From Candidatus Desulfofervidaceae bacterium (GTDB lineage Bacteria > Desulfobacterota > Desulfofervidia > Desulfofervidales > Desulfofervidaceae), in the NCBI GenBank assembly GCA_027038965.1, contig JALWFG010000004.1:1-56162 (forward strand): 56,162 nucleotides of DNA. The letters run 5' to 3'. Each line of letters opens with the position of its first letter. Position 1 is the stretch's first letter. The notes below the pieces were generated by a model that searched no databases, had not been told where the DNA came from, and saw nothing but the letters and a program-made list of their open reading frames with translations. Made by a program: the position numbers and the translations under genes. Of this stretch, positions 695 to 31,272 are shown piece after piece.

Positions 695-1006
695 AAAAGT
701 AAATTGATTAAGGCCAGTTGAGGGTAGCTGTTTTTTAATGTTGCTTTTGCCGCCCTAAAGAAATTCCAACCTCTTTCAGAGCAGTTGTGTTCACAGGTTC
801 TTTTCACCTTACTTATGAAAGGTGTTTCTGAATTGTGGGAATTTCAGTCATATCTTTTCTCTTGTGCCTTTTCTTACAAAAAGAGCGGACTTTAAAAAAA
901 TCTTGACATTAGAACGGCACTTACTTTATTATCAAATTATTGCGTTATTTTCTATTGAAGAAGTTGGTTGGGCTGCTTTACTCCACAAGATAGAAAAGGC
1001 GGCATT
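695..1006 (+). other. Intergenic region between the tRNA and the cmr operon
   Basis: About 310 bases with no convincing gene. It holds a candidate promoter near 903-932 and a single imperfect inverted repeat around 834-850. No repeat-spacer periodicity is present, so it is not the end of a CRISPR array. Confidence 0.5.
903..932 (+). promoter_or_regulatory. Candidate sigma-70 promoter of the cmr operon
   Basis: TTGACA (903-908), an 18-nt spacer and TATTAT (927-932) lie about 75 nt upstream of the chosen cmr1 start. One mismatch from consensus overall. All following cmr genes overlap or abut, so this could drive the whole operon. Confidence 0.55.
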
Positions 1007-2164
1007 ATGGCGGAGAGCGGAGACACTTGGGAAAAAGAAGATAAGTTGCGGAGACGTTTTGAAAAGCAAGTGTCCCTAACGTTACATTGCCGCATTGTAA
1101 CCCCCATGTTTTTAGGGGATGCCGAGCAGAAGGCGGCCCTTCGCCCTGAACCCTTCAAAGGGCTTTTGCGCTACTGGTGGCGCGTCGCGGCGGGGAGGAG
1201 TTTTTCTGGCCACAAAGAAATGCTTGAAGAAGAAACAAAAATATTCGGCGGGGGTGGGGAGAAGGCTCGGAAGAGTTTGGTGACAATAAAGGTTGATGGA
1301 AATGTATTAGCGACAAAATCGAATCTTCTTCCAACCGATAAAATTTATCATCCCGAAGCTCATCCTCCTCGTTCGAGCCGCAAGGGTATGGATATTTCTC
1401 CTCTTTGCTATTTAGCTGGTATGGGACTTACCCATCCCGATGGACAACGAGTAAAAAGAAGCTATCTCCCTGTAGAAAATAGTTTTGTTATCAAGCTATT
1501 TTTTCCGCGGACTCTTTTAGAAGAATCTGCTTTCAAAGTCGCCCTTCTCTACTTCTGTGCCTTTGGATCTGTGGGGTCCCGTTCTCGCAACGGTTGGGGA
1601 AGTTTTCAAGTGGAAAAAGTCGAGCCTGAAGATTGGTTACAAGAAATTTCGAATGCAAATTTTATTAAAATATTGCAAAACGATTTCCCTCATTGGAGAA
1701 AATGTTTTGATAAATCTTATCCTTATACCCTTGCTAAAGGAGACGACGGTAAAGCTCTTTTGTGGAAAGCCGAAGGATTTAAATCCTGGCAAGAAGCCAT
1801 GAAATTTTTAGCTGAAGTATATGTTTATATTCGCACAGGCGAGCCACAAAAATGGCATAAATGGTCTCGACAAACAAAACTTGATCCCGATGCTCAAAAT
1901 TTTATCGCAGAAAGACATCTGCTAGGGTTTCCTTTAACTAATCATCCAGCCCACAAAGCTAGGTGGAAGAGGCTTGCTTCACCTTTACGCTTCTTCGTAA
2001 GAAGGAAAAACACTAAATATACTGCATTTATTTTGCACCTTTCTTATTTTATAGAATCAGCACAAAGATTTATCTTACAAAACGACCAAATAAAACTCTG
2101 GCAAAAAGTTCACGAGCGTTTAGACCAAACTATGCAAAGGGCGAGCATAAATGACTGCCTGTAA
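1007..2164 (+). CDS. cmr1: Type III-B CRISPR effector subunit Cmr1 (Cas7-type RAMP)
   Basis: A 385-residue RAMP-superfamily protein. The N-terminal strand reads SLTLHCRIVTPMFLGDAE, followed by LRPEPFKGLLRYWWRVAAG, the hallmark (RPPSF+G.LRYWWR) of Cmr1, the subunit that caps the distal end of the Cmr backbone and contacts the end of the guide-target duplex. A glycine-rich segment FGSVGSRSRNGWGSF near residue 190 is the usual RAMP loop. The ATG at 1007 was chosen because AAGGCGG precedes it; an in-frame upstream ATG at 968 would add 13 unconserved residues. It is the first gene of the operon and overlaps cmr2 by 14 bases. G+C is visibly lower than in cmr2-cmr5. Confidence 0.88.
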   Translation: MAESGDTWEKEDKLRRRFEKQVSLTLHCRIVTPMFLGDAEQKAALRPEPFKGLLRYWWRVAAGRSFSGHKEMLEEETKIFGGGGEKARKSLVTIKVDGNVLATKSNLLPTDKIYHPEAHPPRSSRKGMDISPLCYLAGMGLTHPDGQRVKRSYLPVENSFVIKLFFPRTLLEESAFKVALLYFCAFGSVGSRSRNGWGSFQVEKVEPEDWLQEISNANFIKILQNDFPHWRKCFDKSYPYTLAKGDDGKALLWKAEGFKSWQEAMKFLAEVYVYIRTGEPQKWHKWSRQTKLDPDAQNFIAERHLLGFPLTNHPAHKARWKRLASPLRFFVRRKNTKYTAFILHLSYFIESAQRFILQNDQIKLWQKVHERLDQTMQRASINDCL

Positions 2165-4991
2165 GATTCCGCAGATATTTCGTGATGACGAAAGCTACTG
2201 GCGCGAGAAGCTGGCGGCTTTTCTTCACGACCCACCGGACAAAGCCCTTGCTATCCGGGGCCATGAAGAACGGGCCAAGCAAATAAGAGATGAGCTTTAT
2301 GTTTCTGCTTCAGATGAAAACCTTGTCAAACGCGCGGACCAGGTGGCCTCTGGGCTTGATCGTACCTTTTTACCGGAGACCCAGAAAGGAGGTTTCATCG
2401 ATTTTTCCAAGCATCCTTTTATCACTCATCCTACCGGACAAGCCGAGCCTTTTAAGATCAGGCCTGTCAAAAAGGGCTCTCCGGAAGAAATCCTTAAAGT
2501 GATTCAAAAAGACGAAGACAAGCTTCCGGAAAAGCAACCACAAAGGTCCTTTGCCCTTTTCCACTACTTTCGTCACGTGCTTCCCTGGCGGCTGGCAAAA
2601 GAAAATGTGTGCGGGCTTTCCTGGCGCTGGTGGCGGCTTCCGGCAGACACGCGCCTCCCAGACCATTCTATTTGGCAACATTGTGCGTTGACTTCGGCCC
2701 TTTATTCCTGTTACCGGCTCTCGCCTCATAAAAAAGCCTCGCTGATGGTCTTTAGCATCACCCCGGTGCAGGAGTTCATTGCCCGTTCGCGCAAGCTCCG
2801 CGACTACTGGGTGGCCTCGCTTATCCTTTCCTGGCTTGCTGCCGAGGGCATGAAGGCCGTCATCTTCCGTTATGGTTCAGATCACCTTATCTATCCCTAC
2901 CCGGTAGGCCAGCCCCTTATCGAGATGATGCTCGATAAGGTGTGTGGTTTTTCCTGCTGGGATAAGCGGTATGAATTACAAGCCCAAGCGGCCACTCTTC
3001 CCAATCGTTTTGTTTTTCTGGTACCAGAAGGCAAGGAAGAAAAGGCGTTTTCCCTGGTAAAGGAAACTATCCAAAGGGCTTGGCTTGGGCTGGCCGGGCA
3101 GGTAAAAGATTTGGTGCGTAAAAAGGCCTTTGCGAAAGTTCCGCCAGAGTGCCTTAAAGCCTTTGAACGCATCTTTACCCGTCAGACCGCCCGTTTTTGG
3201 GAGTTTCATTGGGCGGCTGTTCCCCTTCTTGACCTGGAAACGGTAAGGCAGCAGGCCGTGTTGTTCCCTGAGGAGTTGCGAAACCGCTTCCTCAAGCTTT
3301 ACGAGGAAGCCACTGAAAAATGCCAATTGCCCTATACCAGCCAATCTGAAAAATTTTTCTATTCTCTTACGCACGACCTTCTCGGTCGCGGCCTGGCGGC
3401 GGAAAAGCTATCTCCTTCAGAGCAGCGGGCCGAAGAGCCGGGGATCAAGTGTCATCTCCATCCTGATCTTGAGGCGCTGAGGTTTTCCTGTGTGGAATGT
3501 AAGAAGGCGGGAGAGACGAGGTGTAAGGTCTTTCCGGAACATCAACCAGACGAAAACCCTAGACCAAGCCGGGATCCCTGCTGGCGAAAGATCAGGCAAA
3601 ATTTCTCAAAGACCGATTTTAAAGAGACCGAACGCCTTTCTGCCATCGGGCTCATCAAAAGACTAGCCTCCCGAGCGGTGAATGAAGGGCATCCGCTTTA
3701 CGCCTTTTTCAAGAAAGCCGAAAGTTTTCCCTCTACTACAGAGATGGCCTTAAGTGATTGGCTTAAGCGTGCTGAGGAGGAAATACAAGCCCTGGGGCTT
3801 TCGTGGCGCCAGGTAGCCGAAGTAATTCACCGGCAGGAAAGCCCACAAACCGAATATAACGAAATCGAGGTCATAGACCGCCAAGAGATAACCGACAAAG
3901 TCAAACTTCTTATCAAAAAGTGCAAGGAAGCAAGGGATCTCCTCAAAAATATTGACCGCTATTATGCCCTGCTCATTATGGATGGCGACCACATGGGCAA
4001 GCTCCTTGCCGGTGGTTTTGCGGCCCGCTGGTGCGATACTTTGCATCCGGAGCTGGTGAAACGCCTGGAAGAGGGACAAATCTCAGATCCCTTCTGGCCC
4101 TGCTTTTGGAAGGAGAGATTGGGAGACAGAAGGGGCCTTTCTCCGGCGGTGCACGGGGCCATCTCGCAGGGCCTTTCGGAGTTTGCCCTTTACACCGTGC
4201 CTTATTTGGTAGAGAAGTACAAAGGCCGTCTTATTTATGCCGGGGGAGATGACGTCTGTGCGGTGTTCCCTGTCTCACAAGCCCTTAAGGCGGCTTGCGA
4301 AATAGCGCGGGCCTACAATTGGGCCTTTGTGAGATATGGCAAGTCTCACAAGCCGGGCATTAGGGTGCGCCGAGACGATAAAGAGTTAGAAGAAGTATGG
4401 CTTACAGAAGAGGTCTCTGCCTCTGCAGACTTACAGGAAGACGATCGCCTGCTCCTTCATCTGGGGCCAGGCAGCGAGGAGGTGCTCATCTCTATCTCAG
4501 CCGGGCTTTTGATTGTGCATCACAAATGGCCTTTGCGCGCCGCCATTCGTCGGGCACACGAACTGCTAGATCTGGCCAAGGATTCCGGCCGGGCGGCTCT
4601 AGCCCTTGAGCTTCAGCGTCGGGCCGGAGAACGCCGCACCTTCGTGGCGGGCTTTAGGGACGAAAAATTCAGCCTGAATGTTTGGGAGTCCTTCCGTGAG
4701 GTCATCGAGGCCCTTGCGGAAAACAGGCTATCTTCTTCTGCTGTTTATCGTTTGGCCGCCTTTGAAGACGGATTTCGGGCCTTAGAGGGAGAGGAGCTGG
4801 AGCGCCTGGTGGCCGTGCAGATCAAAAAGGAGAAGGAAATAACGCCAGAACTGGCTCGCTCCATAGCTTCGATCATTATGGGACACCGGCAAAAGAAAAC
4901 CATGTGTGCAGAAAAAAAGAAGTTGGCTTTTGAAGCCTTAGCCATTGCCAATTTTCTTTCGGAAGCAAAGAGAAGAAAGGCCAAGCAATGA
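2151..4991 (+). CDS. cmr2: Type III-B CRISPR large subunit Cas10/Cmr2 with intact HD and GGDD motifs
   Basis: Signature Cas10 subunit of the Cmr complex, 946 residues. An N-terminal HD-type motif FLHDPPDKAL carries H26-D27, associated with target-activated ssDNA cleavage. A zinc-finger region holds C434, H437, C447 and C450. The C-terminal Palm domain has LIYAGGDDVCAVF with GGDD at 698-701, the active site that makes cyclic oligoadenylate (cOA) from ATP when target RNA is bound; an earlier segment LLIMDGDHMGKLLAGG belongs to the other Palm region. Both catalytic motifs are intact, so the complex should be able to signal, in keeping with the CARF-HEPN effector at the end of this operon. The last bases overlap cmr3 in an ATGA junction, implying translational coupling. 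G+C is high for this window. Confidence 0.95.
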   Translation: MTACKIPQIFRDDESYWREKLAAFLHDPPDKALAIRGHEERAKQIRDELYVSASDENLVKRADQVASGLDRTFLPETQKGGFIDFSKHPFITHPTGQAEPFKIRPVKKGSPEEILKVIQKDEDKLPEKQPQRSFALFHYFRHVLPWRLAKENVCGLSWRWWRLPADTRLPDHSIWQHCALTSALYSCYRLSPHKKASLMVFSITPVQEFIARSRKLRDYWVASLILSWLAAEGMKAVIFRYGSDHLIYPYPVGQPLIEMMLDKVCGFSCWDKRYELQAQAATLPNRFVFLVPEGKEEKAFSLVKETIQRAWLGLAGQVKDLVRKKAFAKVPPECLKAFERIFTRQTARFWEFHWAAVPLLDLETVRQQAVLFPEELRNRFLKLYEEATEKCQLPYTSQSEKFFYSLTHDLLGRGLAAEKLSPSEQRAEEPGIKCHLHPDLEALRFSCVECKKAGETRCKVFPEHQPDENPRPSRDPCWRKIRQNFSKTDFKETERLSAIGLIKRLASRAVNEGHPLYAFFKKAESFPSTTEMALSDWLKRAEEEIQALGLSWRQVAEVIHRQESPQTEYNEIEVIDRQEITDKVKLLIKKCKEARDLLKNIDRYYALLIMDGDHMGKLLAGGFAARWCDTLHPELVKRLEEGQISDPFWPCFWKERLGDRRGLSPAVHGAISQGLSEFALYTVPYLVEKYKGRLIYAGGDDVCAVFPVSQALKAACEIARAYNWAFVRYGKSHKPGIRVRRDDKELEEVWLTEEVSASADLQEDDRLLLHLGPGSEEVLISISAGLLIVHHKWPLRAAIRRAHELLDLAKDSGRAALALELQRRAGERRTFVAGFRDEKFSLNVWESFREVIEALAENRLSSSAVYRLAAFEDGFRALEGEELERLVAVQIKKEKEITPELARSIASIIMGHRQKKTMCAEKKKLAFEALAIANFLSEAKRRKAKQ

Positions 4992-6016
4992 TTGAACAAT
5001 GGCTTGAGATTAAACCGCTTGATACCCTATTTTTCCGGGGTGGGGAGCCCATGGAGGCCGGGGAAACCCATGAGGCCGGCGGACCTGTTTTCCCTCCTGT
5101 ACCGGAGACGATTATCGGCGCCCTGCGCACCGCCATTTTGGCGCAAAAGGGGATAGAGCCCGAACGCGTTAAAAATTTGGCCGAAGACGAGGACCTTGAC
5201 CAGAAACACCTCCCCCTCTGGGGTAGCCCTCAGAGGCCGGGATTTGGAATTGCAGGGCCGATTTTCAGGGTAAACGGGGTGGATCTCTTCCCGGCACCAG
5301 CCAATTGGTTTTACAGAAGGGTTAATGGCACTTTAGAAATAAGCGAAGCGCAGCCTTTAAAGAAGGCCCCTCTCAAGGCTAAGCGTTCAAATATTTTGTG
5401 GATAGAACGTCCTCATGAAGACATGAAACCCCTAGCCAGTCGATTCTGGCTTACGAGAAGTGCCCTAGAAAGAGAAGGGTGTTTTGATTTGAAGATTGTT
5501 TGCAATCTTAATGAAGTTACGGCTGAGAAGGCGCAAGCCGTCCCAGGTTTTCTTTTGATAAAAGTTGAGGAACGCGTGGGCATCGCCCGGGACAATGCCC
5601 GCCGCACCATAGAGAAGGGTTATCTCTACGCTACCCGTCACCTCCGTTTGAGCTCTGGTGTTTCCCTTATTGTGGGATTGGACAAGCCCCTTTGTTCCTC
5701 CCACCTGGCTGAAAAAGGGATCTTCCAGCTCGGAGGAGAGGGGCGTCTGGTGCGTTATTGGCTCCTTGAAGATAAAGAAACACCGCGGCTTTCAGGCACA
5801 AATAAGGGCCGTCTTTTGGCCGTCTCTCCTGTGGTGTACGAACGTGCCCAAAAGGCCGGGCTTTTGAACAAGCCCTACGCCTCAGGAAGACTCTTCCGTG
5901 TGGCGGGCTGGGATATGAGGAGGGCCTTTCACAAACCCACGAGAAGCTATTTTCCGGCCGGTGCTGTATTCTTTTCAGATACGGATCCGGGCCTAACAGA
6001 GTTAATACCTTTTTAG
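4988..6016 (+). CDS. cmr3: Type III-B CRISPR subunit Cmr3 (Cas5-like)
   Basis: A 342-residue RAMP protein. The opening segment IKPLDTLFFRGGEPMEAGE is the diagnostic Cmr3 N-terminus, and FPPVPETIIGALRTAIL is the conserved glycine-containing helix that follows. A glycine-rich RAMP loop (LGGEGRLVRYW) appears near residue 245. In characterised Cmr complexes Cmr3 binds the 5' tag of the crRNA and bridges Cas10 to the Cmr4 filament. Its ATG overlaps the cmr2 stop by four bases; the gap to cmr4 is 10 bases, containing an AGGAGGG ribosome-binding site for cmr4. Confidence 0.93.
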   Translation: MIEQWLEIKPLDTLFFRGGEPMEAGETHEAGGPVFPPVPETIIGALRTAILAQKGIEPERVKNLAEDEDLDQKHLPLWGSPQRPGFGIAGPIFRVNGVDLFPAPANWFYRRVNGTLEISEAQPLKKAPLKAKRSNILWIERPHEDMKPLASRFWLTRSALEREGCFDLKIVCNLNEVTAEKAQAVPGFLLIKVEERVGIARDNARRTIEKGYLYATRHLRLSSGVSLIVGLDKPLCSSHLAEKGIFQLGGEGRLVRYWLLEDKETPRLSGTNKGRLLAVSPVVYERAQKAGLLNKPYASGRLFRVAGWDMRRAFHKPTRSYFPAGAVFFSDTDPGLTELIPF

Positions 6017-6026
6017 GAGGGTCAGA

Positions 6027-6929
6027 ATGATTTGGGGTGAAGAAAAAAGACTGTGTCTTTTATACGCCATAACGCCTGTCTACGCCGGCTCCGGGCAGGC
6101 CCTGAAGGCAGTGGACCTTCCCATTCAGCGCGAGCGCCACACCGCCTGGCCCATGGTGCAGGCCTCAGGCGTCAAAGGGGCTTTAAGGGATTGGTGCGAA
6201 AGGACCTGGAAAAAGAATGGAATTGATGATGATTTAGTAGATTGTATTTTCGGCCGGGCCGGTGAAGAAACCGCCAATTGGGCCGGGGCGGTCACGGTGA
6301 CCGACGCCAGGCTTCTCTTTTTCCCGGTGCGCTCCAACGTGGCCCCATTTGTGCACGTAACTTGCCCGGCGGTGCTTAAACGGCTGAAAGAAGACCTGGC
6401 CCTGCTGGGAGTAGATTTAAAGGCGTCCTTTAAGGTGGCAAGAGAAGGGTTTATCTCCTTAAAGGGGGACTTCCCAAATGAAATTATTTTGGAGGACATG
6501 CTGGTAAACAGAGAAGACCAAGCCTCCCTTACGTCCGAGAATCTTTTAAAACCCTATCTGGACCGGGTGGAAAAGGCCGTTATGGTGTCTGACGAAGTAT
6601 TTGGCTTTCTCGTGCGCACGGCCACCGAGGTCCAGGCCCACATTGCCATTGATGATGCCACTGGCACGGCCAAAGACAGTTCCTTGCGTTATCAGGAGTA
6701 TCTTCCAGCAGATTCTGTGCTCTACTTTTTGGTCTTTTTTTCCGCCGACCGCAAGCCGGACAGCAAGTGTAAAGAAAAGGAGACACGTCTTTTCCCAAAT
6801 GATGTGGCGAACCTGATAACCCAGGCTGTTTCCACCCATCTTCAGATTGGCGGCGATTTTACGTTGGGCAAGGGCATCTGTAGGGTTTCCTGGATTTCGC
6901 CAAACGGCTCTCAAGGAGGTGCCAGATGA
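6027..6929 (+). CDS. cmr4: Type III-B CRISPR backbone subunit Cmr4 (Cas7), probable target-RNA ribonuclease
   Basis: A 300-residue Cas7-group RAMP. The segment TPVYAGSGQALKAVDLPIQR followed by ERHTAWPMVQASGVKGALR is the Cmr4 signature. The Asp in VDLPIQRER (D30) matches the catalytic aspartate of Cmr4, which cuts bound target RNA at 6-nt intervals because several copies form the filament. Start ATG at 6027 lies after an AGGAGGG Shine-Dalgarno. The stop overlaps the cmr5 start (ATGA). No missing key residue is noticed. Confidence 0.95.
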   Translation: MIWGEEKRLCLLYAITPVYAGSGQALKAVDLPIQRERHTAWPMVQASGVKGALRDWCERTWKKNGIDDDLVDCIFGRAGEETANWAGAVTVTDARLLFFPVRSNVAPFVHVTCPAVLKRLKEDLALLGVDLKASFKVAREGFISLKGDFPNEIILEDMLVNREDQASLTSENLLKPYLDRVEKAVMVSDEVFGFLVRTATEVQAHIAIDDATGTAKDSSLRYQEYLPADSVLYFLVFFSADRKPDSKCKEKETRLFPNDVANLITQAVSTHLQIGGDFTLGKGICRVSWISPNGSQGGAR

Positions 6930-7348
6930 GAACCAAGGGACAAGAACGGGCCGAATTTGCCTATGAAAAAGTGAAGCAGGCCATAGCGGCCCTTCAAAGG
7001 GGCGAAAAGGAATCCAAAAACGCCGCCAAGGAATTTGCCAGTTTCATGGCCGGGCTTCCAGTCATGATCCTCCAGAATGGTCTGGGGCATACGCTCTGTT
7101 TCCTGTTGGCCAAAGATCAGAACAAGCGGAACACCAAACATTGGTTTGCGTTTGAAGCCGTGGTGGGCTGGCTGGCAAAGGATAAACGGCTCGCTTTTGA
7201 GGCTACTAAACCAACGGAGACAATAAAAGAACTTACCGAAAAGGAAGCCCTTGAATATATGGCCGTTCAAGAAGAGGCCCTGCGGTTTCTGGAATGGTTC
7301 AAGGTGATGAGCAAGATGTTTGTGGAGGAGAAAGGTGCCGAGACATAG
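6926..7348 (+). CDS. cmr5: Type III-B CRISPR small subunit Cmr5
   Basis: A 140-residue, mostly helical protein with the Cmr5 pattern RAEFAYEKVKQAIAALQ, YAKEFASFMAGLP-like middle (here AAKEFASFMAGLPVMILQNG) and LGHTLCFLLAK. Cmr5 forms the inner filament of the Cmr complex that lines the target strand. An AAGGAGGTG site precedes its ATG, which overlaps the cmr4 stop. Its 3' end overlaps the start of cmr6. Length is typical for the family. Confidence 0.92.
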   Translation: MRTKGQERAEFAYEKVKQAIAALQRGEKESKNAAKEFASFMAGLPVMILQNGLGHTLCFLLAKDQNKRNTKHWFAFEAVVGWLAKDKRLAFEATKPTETIKELTEKEALEYMAVQEEALRFLEWFKVMSKMFVEEKGAET

Positions 7349-8249
7349 AGATAATCGTCCTCAGTTTTCAAGACCACCCCGCAGAGGAGATCGGGAGAGT
7401 CAGCCGCCCGCAAAATTTTATCCTCTGCCTGAAAAAATCTGTAAATCTCTTCCTACGTTAGGGAATAACTTCAATTTTGGCCTCTATTTTAATAAGTGGC
7501 TTCCAATCTACCTAAAAAACGGTTTTTCCTCTTATGAATTTCAAACCAAACAGGCCGAGGAGGTTTTGAAAAAGTATAAGGATGGAATTTGCCCCGTCTT
7601 ACAAAACTTGCTCCGTCAAAAACACCGGGAAATTGAAGGTCTTATTCAGGCCTTTGCAAACTTGGGTTATGAGCCTTTAATAAAGGCAGATTACATCCTT
7701 AAGACTTCCCTTATCATCGGGCTCGGCAATGTCCACCCTACCGAACGGGGCTTTACCTTTCACTGGACGTTGGGCCTACCTTATATCCCGGCTGAGGGCA
7801 TGAAGGGTGTTGTTCGTCTGGCCTATTTAGTGGAAAAGGCTCAGGAAGAGCCGGATTTTTTTGAAAATTGGGCCAAAGAAGACGAAAAATTCTGGCAATA
7901 TTTAGCTAAACCTTTTGGACGGGCGGAGAAAGAAAATGGCGCCGAAAGGGGAAAAGTGGTCTTTCTGGACGCCTTCCCGGTAGAGGTCCCAGAGCTTACT
8001 TTGGAGATTACCACCTGCCACTACCCGGATTATTACGGCGGCAAGCGTGGCCCCACCGAGGACCAAAATCCCAATCCTCTTCCGTTTTTGGCGGTAAAAC
8101 CAGGGGTGCAGTTTCGTTTTGTTATGCTGGTTTCAAAAGAGCTTAAAGATGAGGAAGCCTTGCGTAAGGCCTTCACCTCTGCCCTTACCAAACACGGCTT
8201 CGGCGCCAAAACCGCCTTGGGCCACGGGAGGTTTGAATATGCCCCTTAA
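7335..8249 (+). CDS. cmr6: Type III-B CRISPR subunit Cmr6 (Cas7-type RAMP)
   Basis: A 304-residue RAMP that ends the Cmr4 filament next to Cmr1 in known complexes. Visible Cmr6 features are FHWTLGLPYIPAEGMKGVVR, the motif LGNVHPTERGFTF before it and the C-terminal glycine-rich loop GAKTALGHGRFEYAP. The GTG at 7335 was chosen as start because GGAGGAG sits seven bases upstream; an in-frame ATG at 7320 has no visible ribosome-binding site. Either start overlaps cmr5. The first 30 residues are basic and low-complexity. The stop overlaps the next gene by 11 bases, placing that gene in the same transcript. Confidence 0.9.
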   Translation: MPRHRDNRPQFSRPPRRGDRESQPPAKFYPLPEKICKSLPTLGNNFNFGLYFNKWLPIYLKNGFSSYEFQTKQAEEVLKKYKDGICPVLQNLLRQKHREIEGLIQAFANLGYEPLIKADYILKTSLIIGLGNVHPTERGFTFHWTLGLPYIPAEGMKGVVRLAYLVEKAQEEPDFFENWAKEDEKFWQYLAKPFGRAEKENGAERGKVVFLDAFPVEVPELTLEITTCHYPDYYGGKRGPTEDQNPNPLPFLAVKPGVQFRFVMLVSKELKDEEALRKAFTSALTKHGFGAKTALGHGRFEYAP

Positions 8250-9534
8250 AAAAGGTCTTTTGATCTCTGTTGGTACAGGAGTGGGAGGTACACCAAAGAG
8301 TATTTTGCACGCCATTACTCTGGCTGTTTCGGAGAAAAATCCAAATTTTGTGGCGTTTGTTGTTTCCGAACAATCAAGCAAAAATGCCCAAGAAGTAACC
8401 CAAAGATTGGAACTCAACGATGAGCAATATGAGGTATTTCAAGTAGAGGATCCAAATGATCTTGACAAATGTGTGGCAAAAACAAAAGAAGCTTATCAGT
8501 GGTTATTGAATAAAGGTCTTAGAAAAAATGAAATTGTTGCTGATTTTACTTCTGGGACTAAACCTATGTCTTCTGCAATAGTTTTAGTTGCCTTTCAAGA
8601 AGACATTGCGACCCTGAGTTATGTCCAAGGAATGCGAGAACAAGGCCTTGTAAAAAAGGGGACAGAAAGGGTTATTTCTTTCACGCCCTTAATATCTAAA
8701 ATCTATTCGCGGGAAAAAGATATATATAAAAGTCTTTTGAGATATCAATTTGATATAGCCAAATCCAACATAAGAGAGATTCAGGATTACAAAGATTTAG
8801 TTGCCAACCTTGGATTTGAGATTGACTTTTTGCAATATATTGTAGAAGGATACCATTGCTGGGATTTATTTAAACATCACGAGGCAAAAAAATCTTTTGA
8901 AAAGGCATATTCTCTTTTAGAAAAAATTGAAAGGGAAGAATTTAAAAAGATTTTTCCAGGGAAAGAAGTGGTTAAACAGTTGGGATATCTTGGAAATTTG
9001 ATTAATCAAAACAAAAAGAAACCAGATATCATTGCTGATTTATTGGCAAATGCTAATAGACGGATTCAGGAAGGAAAATATGATGATGCTACTGCAAGAT
9101 TGTATAGAATTTTTGAGCTAATTGGACAAACAGTTTTAGAATTAGAATATGGTCTAGACAGTTCGGATCTAAATATCAAAAAAATTGAGGAGCAACTTAA
9201 GGACAAATTTATCAATTGGAAAGACATTTTACGAAGAGATAATGATGGCAAAATAAAAATAGGTGCTAGAAAAGTTTACGAATTGTTAAAAGATTTAGGG
9301 CATCTATTAGGAAATAGAGTTGAAGAATTTAAAACTTTATTAGCTCAAAGGAATTATTCTATTTTAGCACACGGTTTAAGACCTATTAATAAAGAGAAAA
9401 CAGAGGAGTTTTTTGAGAAGATTTTCAAGTTATCCAAGGAAACTTTTGAAGGATTTGAATTGTTATATCAAAAATCCCAGTTTCCATGGAATAATGAAAA
9501 GAAAATGGCAAGTTTGGAAAATACGTCATCATAA
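8239..9534 (+). CDS. CRISPR ancillary CARF-HEPN protein (Cas02710/Csm6-Csx1-like ribonuclease)
   Basis: A 431-residue protein. The N-terminal half is a CARF-type Rossmann domain: GLLISVGTGVGGTPKSI at the first strand and ADFTSGTKPMSSAIVL (D102 onward) at the ligand-binding turn, the pattern of the TIGR02710/Cas02710 group. The C-terminal half is helical and holds LAQRNYSILAHGL, an R-x6-H HEPN RNase motif (R371, H378). Such proteins are allosteric ribonucleases switched on by cyclic oligoadenylate from Cas10, which fits the intact GGDD in cmr2. It overlaps cmr6 by 11 bases. The gene is clearly more A+T-rich than the cmr genes, suggesting a different origin. The exact cOA size recognised cannot be read from sequence. 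Confidence 0.85.
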   Translation: MPLKKGLLISVGTGVGGTPKSILHAITLAVSEKNPNFVAFVVSEQSSKNAQEVTQRLELNDEQYEVFQVEDPNDLDKCVAKTKEAYQWLLNKGLRKNEIVADFTSGTKPMSSAIVLVAFQEDIATLSYVQGMREQGLVKKGTERVISFTPLISKIYSREKDIYKSLLRYQFDIAKSNIREIQDYKDLVANLGFEIDFLQYIVEGYHCWDLFKHHEAKKSFEKAYSLLEKIEREEFKKIFPGKEVVKQLGYLGNLINQNKKKPDIIADLLANANRRIQEGKYDDATARLYRIFELIGQTVLELEYGLDSSDLNIKKIEEQLKDKFINWKDILRRDNDGKIKIGARKVYELLKDLGHLLGNRVEEFKTLLAQRNYSILAHGLRPINKEKTEEFFEKIFKLSKETFEGFELLYQKSQFPWNNEKKMASLENTSS

Positions 9535-28241: not shown

Positions 28242-29762
28242 CTAGGTGTTCAAGGCAAAATAACAATTAATTCCGTTTAGGTAAGCCCGAGCACTGGCTT
28301 CAATTACATCTTGACTTGTAGCCCGACCACTTACTACTTCGCCATTTATTTCAATTTTAACCATTGCCTCTCCAAGGGCCTCGGTACTACTAGTAACCGA
28401 TTCTACTCGATAGTCCAGAAGATTGATAGGGAGACCAGTAATCTGGTTAATACATTTAAAAACGGCGTCCACAGGGCCATTACCTACAGATGCCTGAGTG
28501 ATTTCTTCATTTTTGTTTTTAATAGTCAAGATGGCCAAGGGCAAATCTACGCCACTCATGGCTTGGGTGGTTACCACCATTTTAACAAAGCTATAAATTT
28601 CAGGTACCTTTGTTAATTCTACCTCAACAATGGACTTCAAATCTTCAGCCGTAATCTCCTTTTTCTTATCTGCTAAGACCAAAAAACGTTCATAGACTTG
28701 CTCAAACACCTCGTCAGCCAAATCATAACCCAGTTCTGAAAGTTTTTGACGTACTGCCTTTCTTCCAGATCGAGCAGTGAGTACCAAAAGGTGTTTTTGG
28801 GCCCCTACGTCCTCAGGACGAATAATTTCGTAGGTACGTCTGTCTTTCAAAATGCCGTCTTGATGGATACCAGAAGAATGAGCAAAGGCATTACTGCCCA
28901 CAATTGCCTTATTGGGTTGAACAGGCAAATTCATCATCCTGCTTACCAAATGACTAGTGGGGACGATTTCTGTGGTGTTAATCCCTACCTCGGCATCAAA
29001 ATGTTGAGGACGAGTTTTGAGAATCATGACTATTTCTTCCAAAGCTGCATTACCAGCCCGCTCACCAATCCCATTGACAGTGCATTCTACTTGGGTTGCT
29101 CCATTTTGAATAGCAGCAATGGTATTGGCTGTGGCCAATCCCAAGTCATTATGACAATGAACACTTACAGTAATCTTGTCTGTAGCAGGTACCCTCTCAC
29201 AGAGATTGCGAATAAGGGCCCCAAATTCTTCAGGGATAGAGTAACCTACCGTATCTGGAATATTGATTACAGTAGCCCCAGCCTTAATAGTTGCCTCTAC
29301 TACCCGACAAAGGTAATCAAAATCTGCTCTAGTGGCATCTTCAGGTGAAAACTCTACATCTGAACAATACCGCTTGGCATATTTTACAGCTTCTACCGCC
29401 ATTTCTAGGGCACGTTCCCTGTCCAAACGTAGCTTTTTTTTGATATGAATGTCTGAGGCAGCCAAAAAGACGTGAATCCGAGGCCTTTCAGCATCTTTAA
29501 TGCTGTTCCATAGGATGTCAATATCATTTTTAAGAGACCTTGCTAAACCGGCAATAATAGGTCTTTTTATCTTTTGGGCCACAAGATTTACGGCCTTAGC
29601 GTCTCCAGGAGAAGAAGCTGGAAAACCTGCCTCAATAACATCAACTCCCAAACGCTCTAGCTGTCTAGCTACAATTAGCTTTTGTTCAATATTAAGTTTG
29701 GCTCCGGGTACTTGTTCTCCATCGCGCAATGTCGTATCAAAAATAAACACCCTCCTGGACAT
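28242..29762 (-). CDS. leuA: 2-isopropylmalate synthase
   Basis: A 506-residue enzyme that condenses acetyl-CoA with 2-oxoisovalerate in the first step of leucine synthesis. The HMGL-like TIM barrel shows FDTTLRDGEQVPGAKLN, VSVHCHNDLGLATANTIAAI and NGIGERAGNAALEEIV; the C-terminal LeuA allosteric domain (about 390-506, ending with SGRATSQDVIEASARAYLNG) binds leucine. The ATG at 29762 follows CAAGGAGGATT; an upstream in-frame start would lie in the attenuator. Expression is very likely controlled by the leucine-codon attenuator at 29797-29913. Confidence 0.96.
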   Translation of the reverse strand: MSRRVFIFDTTLRDGEQVPGAKLNIEQKLIVARQLERLGVDVIEAGFPASSPGDAKAVNLVAQKIKRPIIAGLARSLKNDIDILWNSIKDAERPRIHVFLAASDIHIKKKLRLDRERALEMAVEAVKYAKRYCSDVEFSPEDATRADFDYLCRVVEATIKAGATVINIPDTVGYSIPEEFGALIRNLCERVPATDKITVSVHCHNDLGLATANTIAAIQNGATQVECTVNGIGERAGNAALEEIVMILKTRPQHFDAEVGINTTEIVPTSHLVSRMMNLPVQPNKAIVGSNAFAHSSGIHQDGILKDRRTYEIIRPEDVGAQKHLLVLTARSGRKAVRQKLSELGYDLADEVFEQVYERFLVLADKKKEITAEDLKSIVEVELTKVPEIYSFVKMVVTTQAMSGVDLPLAILTIKNKNEEITQASVGNGPVDAVFKCINQITGLPINLLDYRVESVTSSTEALGEAMVKIEINGEVVSGRATSQDVIEASARAYLNGINCYFALNT

Positions 29763-29796
29763 TTCAATCCTCCTTGTATTCCCTAAATAAAAAGAA

Positions 29797-29827
29797 AAAG
29801 GCCATGGGCCCTTCACCCATGGCCTTT
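29797..29827 (-). terminator. Attenuator terminator in the leuA leader
   Basis: A 12-bp perfect stem (AAAGGCCATGGG with its complement) with a 7-nt loop is followed on the minus strand by TTTTTC-type U-tract, between the leader peptide and leuA. The 3' strand of an alternative antiterminator, GGGTGAAGGG (29818-29809), overlaps the loop and can pair with CCCTTCATCC (29853-29844) next to the leader-peptide stop. Confidence 0.85.
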
Positions 29828-29853
29828 GATGTCCTTAAGCCCTGGATGAAGGG

Positions 29854-29913
29854 TTAATCAGGTTCTAACAACAAATCTAATAATTCCAAGCGACGAATTC
29901 TCAAACTTACCAT
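29854..29913 (-). CDS. leuL: Leucine-rich leader peptide of the leuA attenuator
   Basis: A 19-codon frame upstream of leuA encodes MVSLRIRRLELLDLLLEPD: seven of 19 residues are leucine, with four in the run LLDLLL plus flanking Leu. Ribosome stalling here at low charged Leu-tRNA would leave the antiterminator segment just after the stop free to pair. The initiation region is weak (CAGAGT before ATG). Assignment rests on codon content and the ideal placement relative to antiterminator and terminator. Confidence 0.8.
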   Translation of the reverse strand: MVSLRIRRLELLDLLLEPD

Positions 29914-29919
29914 ACTCTG

Positions 29920-29948
29920 AAAGTAGCTAAAGATTAAGCATTTGTCAA
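29920..29948 (-). promoter_or_regulatory. Candidate promoter of the leu leader
   Basis: TTGACA (29948-29943), a 17-nt spacer and TACTTT (29925-29920). The -10 is weak and would place the start almost at the leader-peptide ATG, so the leader mRNA may be leaderless or another -10 is used. Confidence 0.4.
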
Positions 29949-29964
29949 GCCTGGCCAGAACTCA

Positions 29965-30115
29965 AATAGCAGTTGATGATTGATGGTGAATGGGGAATAG
30001 TTGATAGTTGATATGAAGTGGGAGGTTTAGAGGCTGTAGAAGTTGTAGAAGGGAAAACTTTTCTTAAAACTCCAACTACCAGGAACTAAGCACCAAGCAC
30101 TCCTAAATATCAAAT
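29965..30115. repeat. Low-complexity intergenic element, copy 2
   Basis: Contains TTGATGGTGAATGGGGAA followed by GTTGTAGAAG and AAAACTT-type tracts in the same order as the element at 27379-27490, so the two appear related though diverged. No gene is visible. Confidence 0.45.
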
Positions 30116-30139: not shown

Positions 30140-31141
30140 TTAATCCTGACAATTGAAATTAAACCTATTCAGAAGTGTTTTGTCTTTTTGAAAAATGCGA
30201 CCAAAATCATATTTGGGATAATAATAGCAAATATGTCTAAGCTCAAAATCAGGTGCTTGGCGGAAAATATCTGTTTTTTCTATAAAAAAGTAAGACAGGG
30301 CTTCTGGAGTCATGATTACTTTAGCATATTCTCCTTTTTCCTTTTGGTTGTCATCAATAAAGTGAGTACGGGTAAAAAAAAAGGTGTATAAACATGCATC
30401 AAGTTCATCAAATTTATATCCATTTTTTATTTGATTTTCGGCGGTCTTTAAATTCAAATGCATGGCTACGGCAGGTGCACCTTGAACCTTGCTATAACTT
30501 CTTTCAGGGCCTATGACTTCAAAAAAAAGGACCTTTTTATAAAAATCAGCATGCTTTGGATTTACGGCAATTACTAGATTGGTGACTCCTGCAAATAAGG
30601 CAAAACCAACCAAAAATTGATTTAAATACATAAACATTTTTTCATAGCGATATTCTGGAGATATTGCTAGACTGGAAACTTCAGCCAATTTTAAATATTT
30701 CCTCCGAAGTGATTGAATTTCTTCATAGTATATATCTTCCATGGGGAGTCCTAAAGCAGAATCTATAACAAGGGTGATGGTGCCTATGGTCTTATGTTTA
30801 ATCCTTTTTGAGGGAATTGCTTTCTTACCATCTGGAAATGGGACTTCTGAATCCCTAGCCAAAAAGGTAATTGCATGGGGTAAGGCATTGTAAATAGAGA
30901 TTCGCATCTCAGAAGGATGTGGTTTCATATATCCTTTTTCTACGTATACGTCATGCAACAGTTTATATGCAGCTTCTAGTTCATTTTTAGTTTCTGCTAT
31001 TTTTAAATCAAGCCAAAGGGGTCTTTTCTCGCTGCACAATCTTGCTGCCCACCTTTTCAAACGGACAGCACTTCGCTTCTCTGGGTAATATTTTCTTGTT
31101 ATCAACTCAGTTTTATCAGCAATTACCAAAGGCATTGGCAT
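30140..31141 (-). CDS. PEP-CTERM/exosortase-associated N-acyltransferase (FeeM-like GNAT)
   Basis: A 333-residue protein. An N-terminal basic segment leads into a GNAT-like region: LKIAETKNELEAAYKLLHDV, YVEKGYMKPHPSEMRIS, IGTITLVIDS, AEVSSLAISPEYR and LVIAVNPKHADFYKKVLFFE. This is the pattern of FeeM-type long-chain N-acyl amino acid synthases, a group that includes the acyltransferase of TIGR03694 found in exosortase-positive genomes. The product may be a signal or membrane lipid; substrates are not readable. The ATG at 31141 was chosen for AAGGAAGG upstream; an in-frame TTG at 31216 is less likely. Confidence 0.75.
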   Translation of the reverse strand: MPMPLVIADKTELITRKYYPEKRSAVRLKRWAARLCSEKRPLWLDLKIAETKNELEAAYKLLHDVYVEKGYMKPHPSEMRISIYNALPHAITFLARDSEVPFPDGKKAIPSKRIKHKTIGTITLVIDSALGLPMEDIYYEEIQSLRRKYLKLAEVSSLAISPEYRYEKMFMYLNQFLVGFALFAGVTNLVIAVNPKHADFYKKVLFFEVIGPERSYSKVQGAPAVAMHLNLKTAENQIKNGYKFDELDACLYTFFFTRTHFIDDNQKEKGEYAKVIMTPEALSYFFIEKTDIFRQAPDFELRHICYYYPKYDFGRIFQKDKTLLNRFNFNCQD

Positions 31142-31272
31142 GTAACCTTCCTTAAAACTTTTAAAAAGGTTAACATATTTTCCCGTTAAATACAATCTTT
31201 TTTTAAAAGAAAACAATGTCTAGAAACTGGCTTACAGTTGACAAAAGCGGGGTTCTCAAGTAAATCACTTCT

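Follow-up and report, generated by a model that had tools for sequence, protein, structure and literature searches.

Does the short stretch of DNA ahead of leuA in this genome of the Desulfofervidaceae, a family of sulfate reducers that partner alkane-oxidising archaea, switch transcription of the gene according to the supply of leucine? The window (the whole stretch of DNA analysed, 56,162 nucleotides) had received an initial annotation in which a Leu-rich leader peptide, an antiterminator and a terminator with a U-tract were placed in this order upstream of leuA and interpreted as a ribosome-stalling attenuator. All of these elements were found on the minus strand in the order given. We propose, with a probability of about 0.94, that the element works by classical ribosome-mediated transcription attenuation and senses charged tRNA-Leu. 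The stalling mechanism fits the order of the parts, the folding of the RNA with the ribosome at two positions, the Leu codons and helices of related leaders, as well as the presence, in the same genome, of a parallel attenuator for trp.

The leuA gene (28242..29762, minus strand, ATG at 29762) encodes a 2-isopropylmalate synthase of 506 aa that is complete as judged by Pfam (HMGL-like, 2e-91; LeuA_dimer, 5e-32) and shares 90% identity with its counterpart in a genome from the same genus (G001), and it is preceded by the Shine-Dalgarno sequence AAGGAGG (29769..29775, minus strand). A 524-aa version of the reading frame starting at GTG 29816 was rejected as a product of mechanical ORF calling. 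Since the gene downstream is convergent, leuA forms a single-gene unit. Just upstream of the leader lies a gene for a FeeM-type N-acyl amino acid synthase (PF21926, 5e-46; 30140-31216, minus strand), and between the two (29960-30100) is a degenerate repetitive text (AACTATCAACTATTCCCCATTCACCATCAATCATCAAC and similar); text resembling it also occurs upstream of pheA in another member of the family, G002. Elsewhere in the window, a gene run at 968-9534 (plus strand) resembles, by eye from the translations, a type III (Cmr/RAMP) CRISPR effector module.

The leuA promoter, like all the following features on the minus strand, consists of a -35 hexamer TTGACA (29943..29948) and, after a spacer of 17 nt, a -10 hexamer TACTTT (29920..29925), which is weak, as had been remarked; in G001 and G002 the same -35 hexamer and 17-nt spacer are combined with TAATTT and TAATGT. 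The leader ORF (MVSLRIRRLELLDLLLEPD, 19 codons and a TAA stop, 29854..29913) begins 6 nt past the -10 hexamer and has no Shine-Dalgarno sequence, and it is probably leaderless, with its ATG at or next to +1. Translation of 29913-29854 confirmed seven Leu among the 19 codons, six of them within the densest ten. The stop codon directly abuts region 2, the 5' strand of the antiterminator (29837..29853), which reads CCCTTCATCCAGGGCTT as a whole and is made up of CCCTTCATCCA (29843..29853), a mismatched G and GGCTT. Region 3, the 3' strand (29809..29825), consists of AGGCC, a mismatched A and TGGGTGAAGGG, and overlaps the 5' arm and the loop of the terminator. Pairing of CCCTTCATCCA.GGCTT with AGGCC.TGGGTGAAGGG gives 16 bp (11+5) with one 1x1 mismatch; the antiterminator of the initial annotation thus exists, at 16 bp instead of 10. 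The intrinsic terminator hairpin (AAAGGCCATGGGTGAAGGGCCCATGGCCTTT, 29797..29827), separated from region 2 by 9 nt, has 13 pairs (seven G-C and one G-U at the tip) and a loop of 5 and is followed by a U-rich tract (29785..29796), so that stem and U-tract stand as described except that the stem had been counted as 12 bp.

To examine the logic of the switch, we masked those bases of the nascent RNA that a ribosome would hide, counting 14 nt onward from the first base of the A-site codon, and folded the remainder. If a Leu codon is being read and synthesis has reached the end of region 3, the predicted fold is the 16-bp antiterminator, with energies of -25.0 kcal/mol at 37 C and -15.3 at 60 C; the Desulfofervidaceae are presumed thermophiles. 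A ribosome that has arrived at the stop codon hides region 2, which prevents the antiterminator (-4.7) and lets the terminator fold at -23.5 kcal/mol (37 C) or -16.0 (60 C); the corresponding values for the terminator hairpin are -23.2 and -15.6. Both outcomes are likewise predicted for the leuA leaders of G001 and G002; in the latter, part of region 2 would still be covered when the ribosome sits on the final Leu codon. Because the antiterminator has 16 bp, it disrupts the 5' arm of the terminator over most of its length and not at the tip alone, and because the stop codon touches region 2, blocking by a terminating ribosome would be direct. On thermodynamic grounds alone the full terminator of the window leader, at -28.0, is not outcompeted by the antiterminator, at -25.0, and the switch therefore needs a kinetic order of folding, as, to our knowledge, all attenuators of the ribosome-mediated kind do. 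Folded as a whole, the leader does not stand out (z = -1.7), as expected from two exclusive states. Only weak local hairpins form at region 2 in the window, so that, a stable 1:2 protector being weak, termination without any translation is uncertain; local hairpins at region 2 of GGATGA/TCATCC in G001 and CTTCAC/GTGAAG in G002 were also predicted, and each of the three members of the family seems to use a different one.

A Leu-rich ORF, an intrinsic terminator and an antiterminator exclusive with it were thus all identified, from sequence and masked folding. From the anatomy, folding, conservation and covariation reported here, we infer the start site, leader translation, stalling and read-through as follows. 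Transcription would start at or next to the leader ATG, with a ribosome trailing the RNA polymerase. When leucine is plentiful, the ribosome would reach the stop codon and cover region 2, leaving region 3 to pair with region 4 into the terminator, and transcription would end before leuA. When leucine is short, the ribosome would stall on one of the clustered Leu codons and leave region 2 free; the 16-bp 2:3 helix could then form before region 4 is made, and the polymerase would continue into leuA.

The arrangement is not expected by chance. In 1160 dinucleotide shuffles (58 leuA upstream regions, 20 shuffles each), any terminator appeared in 20 and a leader ORF with at least 4 Leu in 10 codons before a terminator in none. 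The duplex between regions 2 and 3 was matched by 0/200 shuffles in the window, and likewise for all three Desulfofervidaceae leaders, and it reached p <= 0.05 in 39 of the 43 leaders tested.

Loss of the Leu codons in relatives, which the initial annotation held would speak against attenuation, was not what we found: the Leu codons are conserved. Within the Desulfofervidaceae, leader, antiterminator and terminator also precede leuA in G001 and G002, where the leader peptides (MRLFQLLTLCLKLLVPG and MQRISFLLQVQGFNLGLFLGLS, respectively) are unalignable and have Leu content alone in common. The motif CCTTCA[TC]CCA and its partner TGGGTGAAGG are retained in these two genomes, with G-U changed to G-C, and CCTTCATCCAT or CCTTCACCCATG stands opposite ATGGGTGAAGG. 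The genes upstream of leuA vary among the relatives while the attenuator stays with leuA. In the same order, no element was found before leuA in G003 (where leuA closely follows another gene) or in G005, and in G004 the element is reduced to a promoter and a hairpin. The G004 promoter (L004 1400-1500) is directly followed by the hairpin GGCCATGGGCTTTACCCATGGC, the leader ORF being missing, an arrangement suggestive of a decayed attenuator. In the class to which G042, the Syntrophobacteraceae and Desulforhabdus belong, both a Leu-rich leader and a terminator were found upstream of leuA in about 44 of 50 cases, and a stretch of 10 leader codons holds as many as 9 Leu. The terminator stem there (AAAGGCCATGGG/CCCATGGCCTTT) is nearly that of the Desulfofervidaceae; region 2 differs, being of the type GGGGAACCCnnnGCCTTT. 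Leu-rich leaders with terminators of the type GAGCCACGG...CCGTGGCTT were also seen before leuA in Zetaproteobacteria (Ghiorsea and others; L066, L087, L091-L097, L103, L107), and one Alteromonas record has a leader of a similar kind in front of leuA.

The initial annotation had suggested covariation of the hairpins as a check, and both exclusive helices were found to covary among 46 leaders. In the antiterminator 29 cells changed on both sides, compared with 10.5 +/- 2.7 in shuffles, and in the terminator 9 cells, compared with 0.4 +/- 0.6; none of 500 shuffles reached the observed value for either helix, figures that are to be read as support and not as probabilities given that the shuffles ignore relatedness, and that rest on the Syntrophobacteraceae class since MAFFT left region 2 of the three Desulfofervidaceae unaligned with the rest. 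Across the 46 leaders, 99.2% of the terminator cells are paired.

Leaders matched to other amino acids occur in the same family. In the window genome (G000), G001, G002 and G003, trpE has upstream of it a leader peptide containing Trp-Trp-Trp, with alternative folds of the textbook kind; the peptides (L174, L173, L170 and L171) are MFGLCWWWALQMAME, MLKIRNWWWLLQGAME, MLIGENWWWAL and MMLNYWWWLLRTAME, each followed by two tandem terminators, and that of the window genome (L174) lies on G000:C16 upstream of trpE at 138106. In G001, pheA follows a Phe-rich ORF led by a Shine-Dalgarno sequence (MAAGINLDFFFYFMIYPPRSRP, L188) and then a terminator, GGCCGTGGGCC; no Phe-rich leader of this sort was seen before pheA in G000 or G002, and no attenuator was found at the ilvB and hisG genes of the order that were checked. 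The matching of codons to the gene across amino acids is the best independent argument for the ribosome attenuation predicted in this family. It also bears on the idea that the nascent chain itself arrests the ribosome, as in TnaC or ErmCL, free leucine being the ligand and slow decoding of Leu codons playing no part. A ribosome arrested in this way would produce the identical RNA switch, but codon-matched Trp and Phe leaders are present in the family, and the leader peptides are unconserved beyond their Leu content, with shifting Leu positions, so that we consider this mechanism very improbable.

Terminator and antiterminator are by themselves also features of riboswitches, and a T-box or another riboswitch binding tRNA or a small molecule might control the terminator, the leader ORF being incidental. 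A T-box does precede leuA in one other genome of the phylum, G030: it scores 126 bits (L112, G030:C12:288977-289198) and lies directly upstream of the gene, so that the same gene is there apparently under a different tRNA-sensing device. However, the T-box family (RF00230) was absent from the genomes of the order and present in just one of the 59 genomes searched, and Rfam scans of the window and of six relatives gave no family above the gathering score and no match, respectively. A match to RNAIII in the window (27.4 bits, gathering score 47) was rejected as spurious, as it corresponds to a terminator stem. The leader is moreover too short for an aptamer and its conserved part is the Leu codons, which makes control by a riboswitch highly unlikely. 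The initial annotation presented attenuation as a surprise in a lineage where T-boxes or repressors might be expected; the surprise is smaller than implied, the device being the rule before leuA in the Syntrophobacteraceae class and T-boxes being rare. Finally, the hairpin could hardly be a mere terminator of the FeeM-like gene (31216-30140) with a Leu-rich ORF arisen by chance, for although that gene is codirectional with leuA and ends 313 nt ahead of the hairpin, the promoter and leader ORF lie between them, the hairpin is kept in G001 where the upstream gene has the opposite direction, and dozens of genomes keep both the Leu codons and the antiterminator together with leuA.

Returning to the leucine attenuator, two features of its build recur in the family. 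In 3/3 leu and 4/4 trp leaders, the ATG follows the -10 hexamer by 5-7 nt and has no Shine-Dalgarno sequence, so that the missing 5' UTR suspected for the window is borne out and conserved; these ATGs are probably at or next to +1 and the leaders leaderless. In the Syntrophobacteraceae class the distance from -10 to ATG is about 30-45 nt where a promoter is visible, and a Shine-Dalgarno sequence is often present. Leaderless leader peptides are uncommon and not new, one being already known for trpL of S. meliloti (PMC7298713). The second feature is an additional hairpin and U-tract after the first terminator, found in 6 of 7 leaders (the four trp leaders and the leu leaders of G001 and G002, where it contains GGCCATGGG and lies at L003 1440-1480 and the corresponding position of L006); the leuA leader of the window has no second hairpin. 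A 4:5 helix of 7-10 bp, at about -12 to -19 kcal/mol (37 C), can form between the 3' arm of the first terminator and the 5' arm of the second; in the G002 leu leader the second terminator is slightly favoured at 60 C. On these folds, 4:5 pairing could put the second terminator out of action at the very moment the first is; the complementarity could just as well follow from having two similar hairpins in tandem. It is conceivable, though we hold it only tentatively, that the Desulfofervidaceae have a distinct attenuator build that joins leaderless leaders (3 leu and 4 trp) with interlocked tandem terminators (6 of 7), the window leuA leader then being leaderless with its second terminator lost or never present.

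The results extend codon-matched ribosome attenuation of leuA to the Desulfofervidaceae, with statistical and covariation support. The leuA attenuator is the rule in the related class and yet described by no Rfam family, and so belongs to a wide, uncatalogued group. It would imply that transcription and translation are tightly coupled in these uncultured bacteria and that the coupled ribosome has a leaderless start, and would offer a sensor, readable from sequence, of leucine and tryptophan starvation in syntrophic consortia.

The nearest known counterpart is the enterobacterial leu operon attenuator (leuL of Salmonella and E. coli; Leu_leader in Rfam), which likewise has a leader peptide with Leu codons, exclusive antiterminator and terminator and a position upstream of leuA. 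Unlike it, the window element has no detectable sequence or Rfam match, its leader starts at or near +1 without a Shine-Dalgarno sequence, its antiterminator uses the terminator loop, it has no strong 1:2 hairpin and its leuA is a single-gene unit. In the open-access literature searched, the coverage of which is incomplete, no earlier report for this lineage was found. The trpL/trpE(G) attenuator of S. meliloti is similar in that the transcript begins with the ATG of the leader ORF, but it responds to Trp and not Leu, belongs to another phylum and has another structure (PMC7298713). The ilv-leu attenuator of S. aureus likewise places a Leu-rich leader peptide and a terminator before branched-chain genes, whereas its leader has a ribosome binding site and mixed Ile and Leu codons and precedes an ilvD operon (PMC5794164). 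The actinobacterial LEU element also has a leader ORF with a run of Leu before leuA, but in that case a pseudoknot pairs with the Shine-Dalgarno sequence of leuA in place of a terminator switch (PMC1262725).
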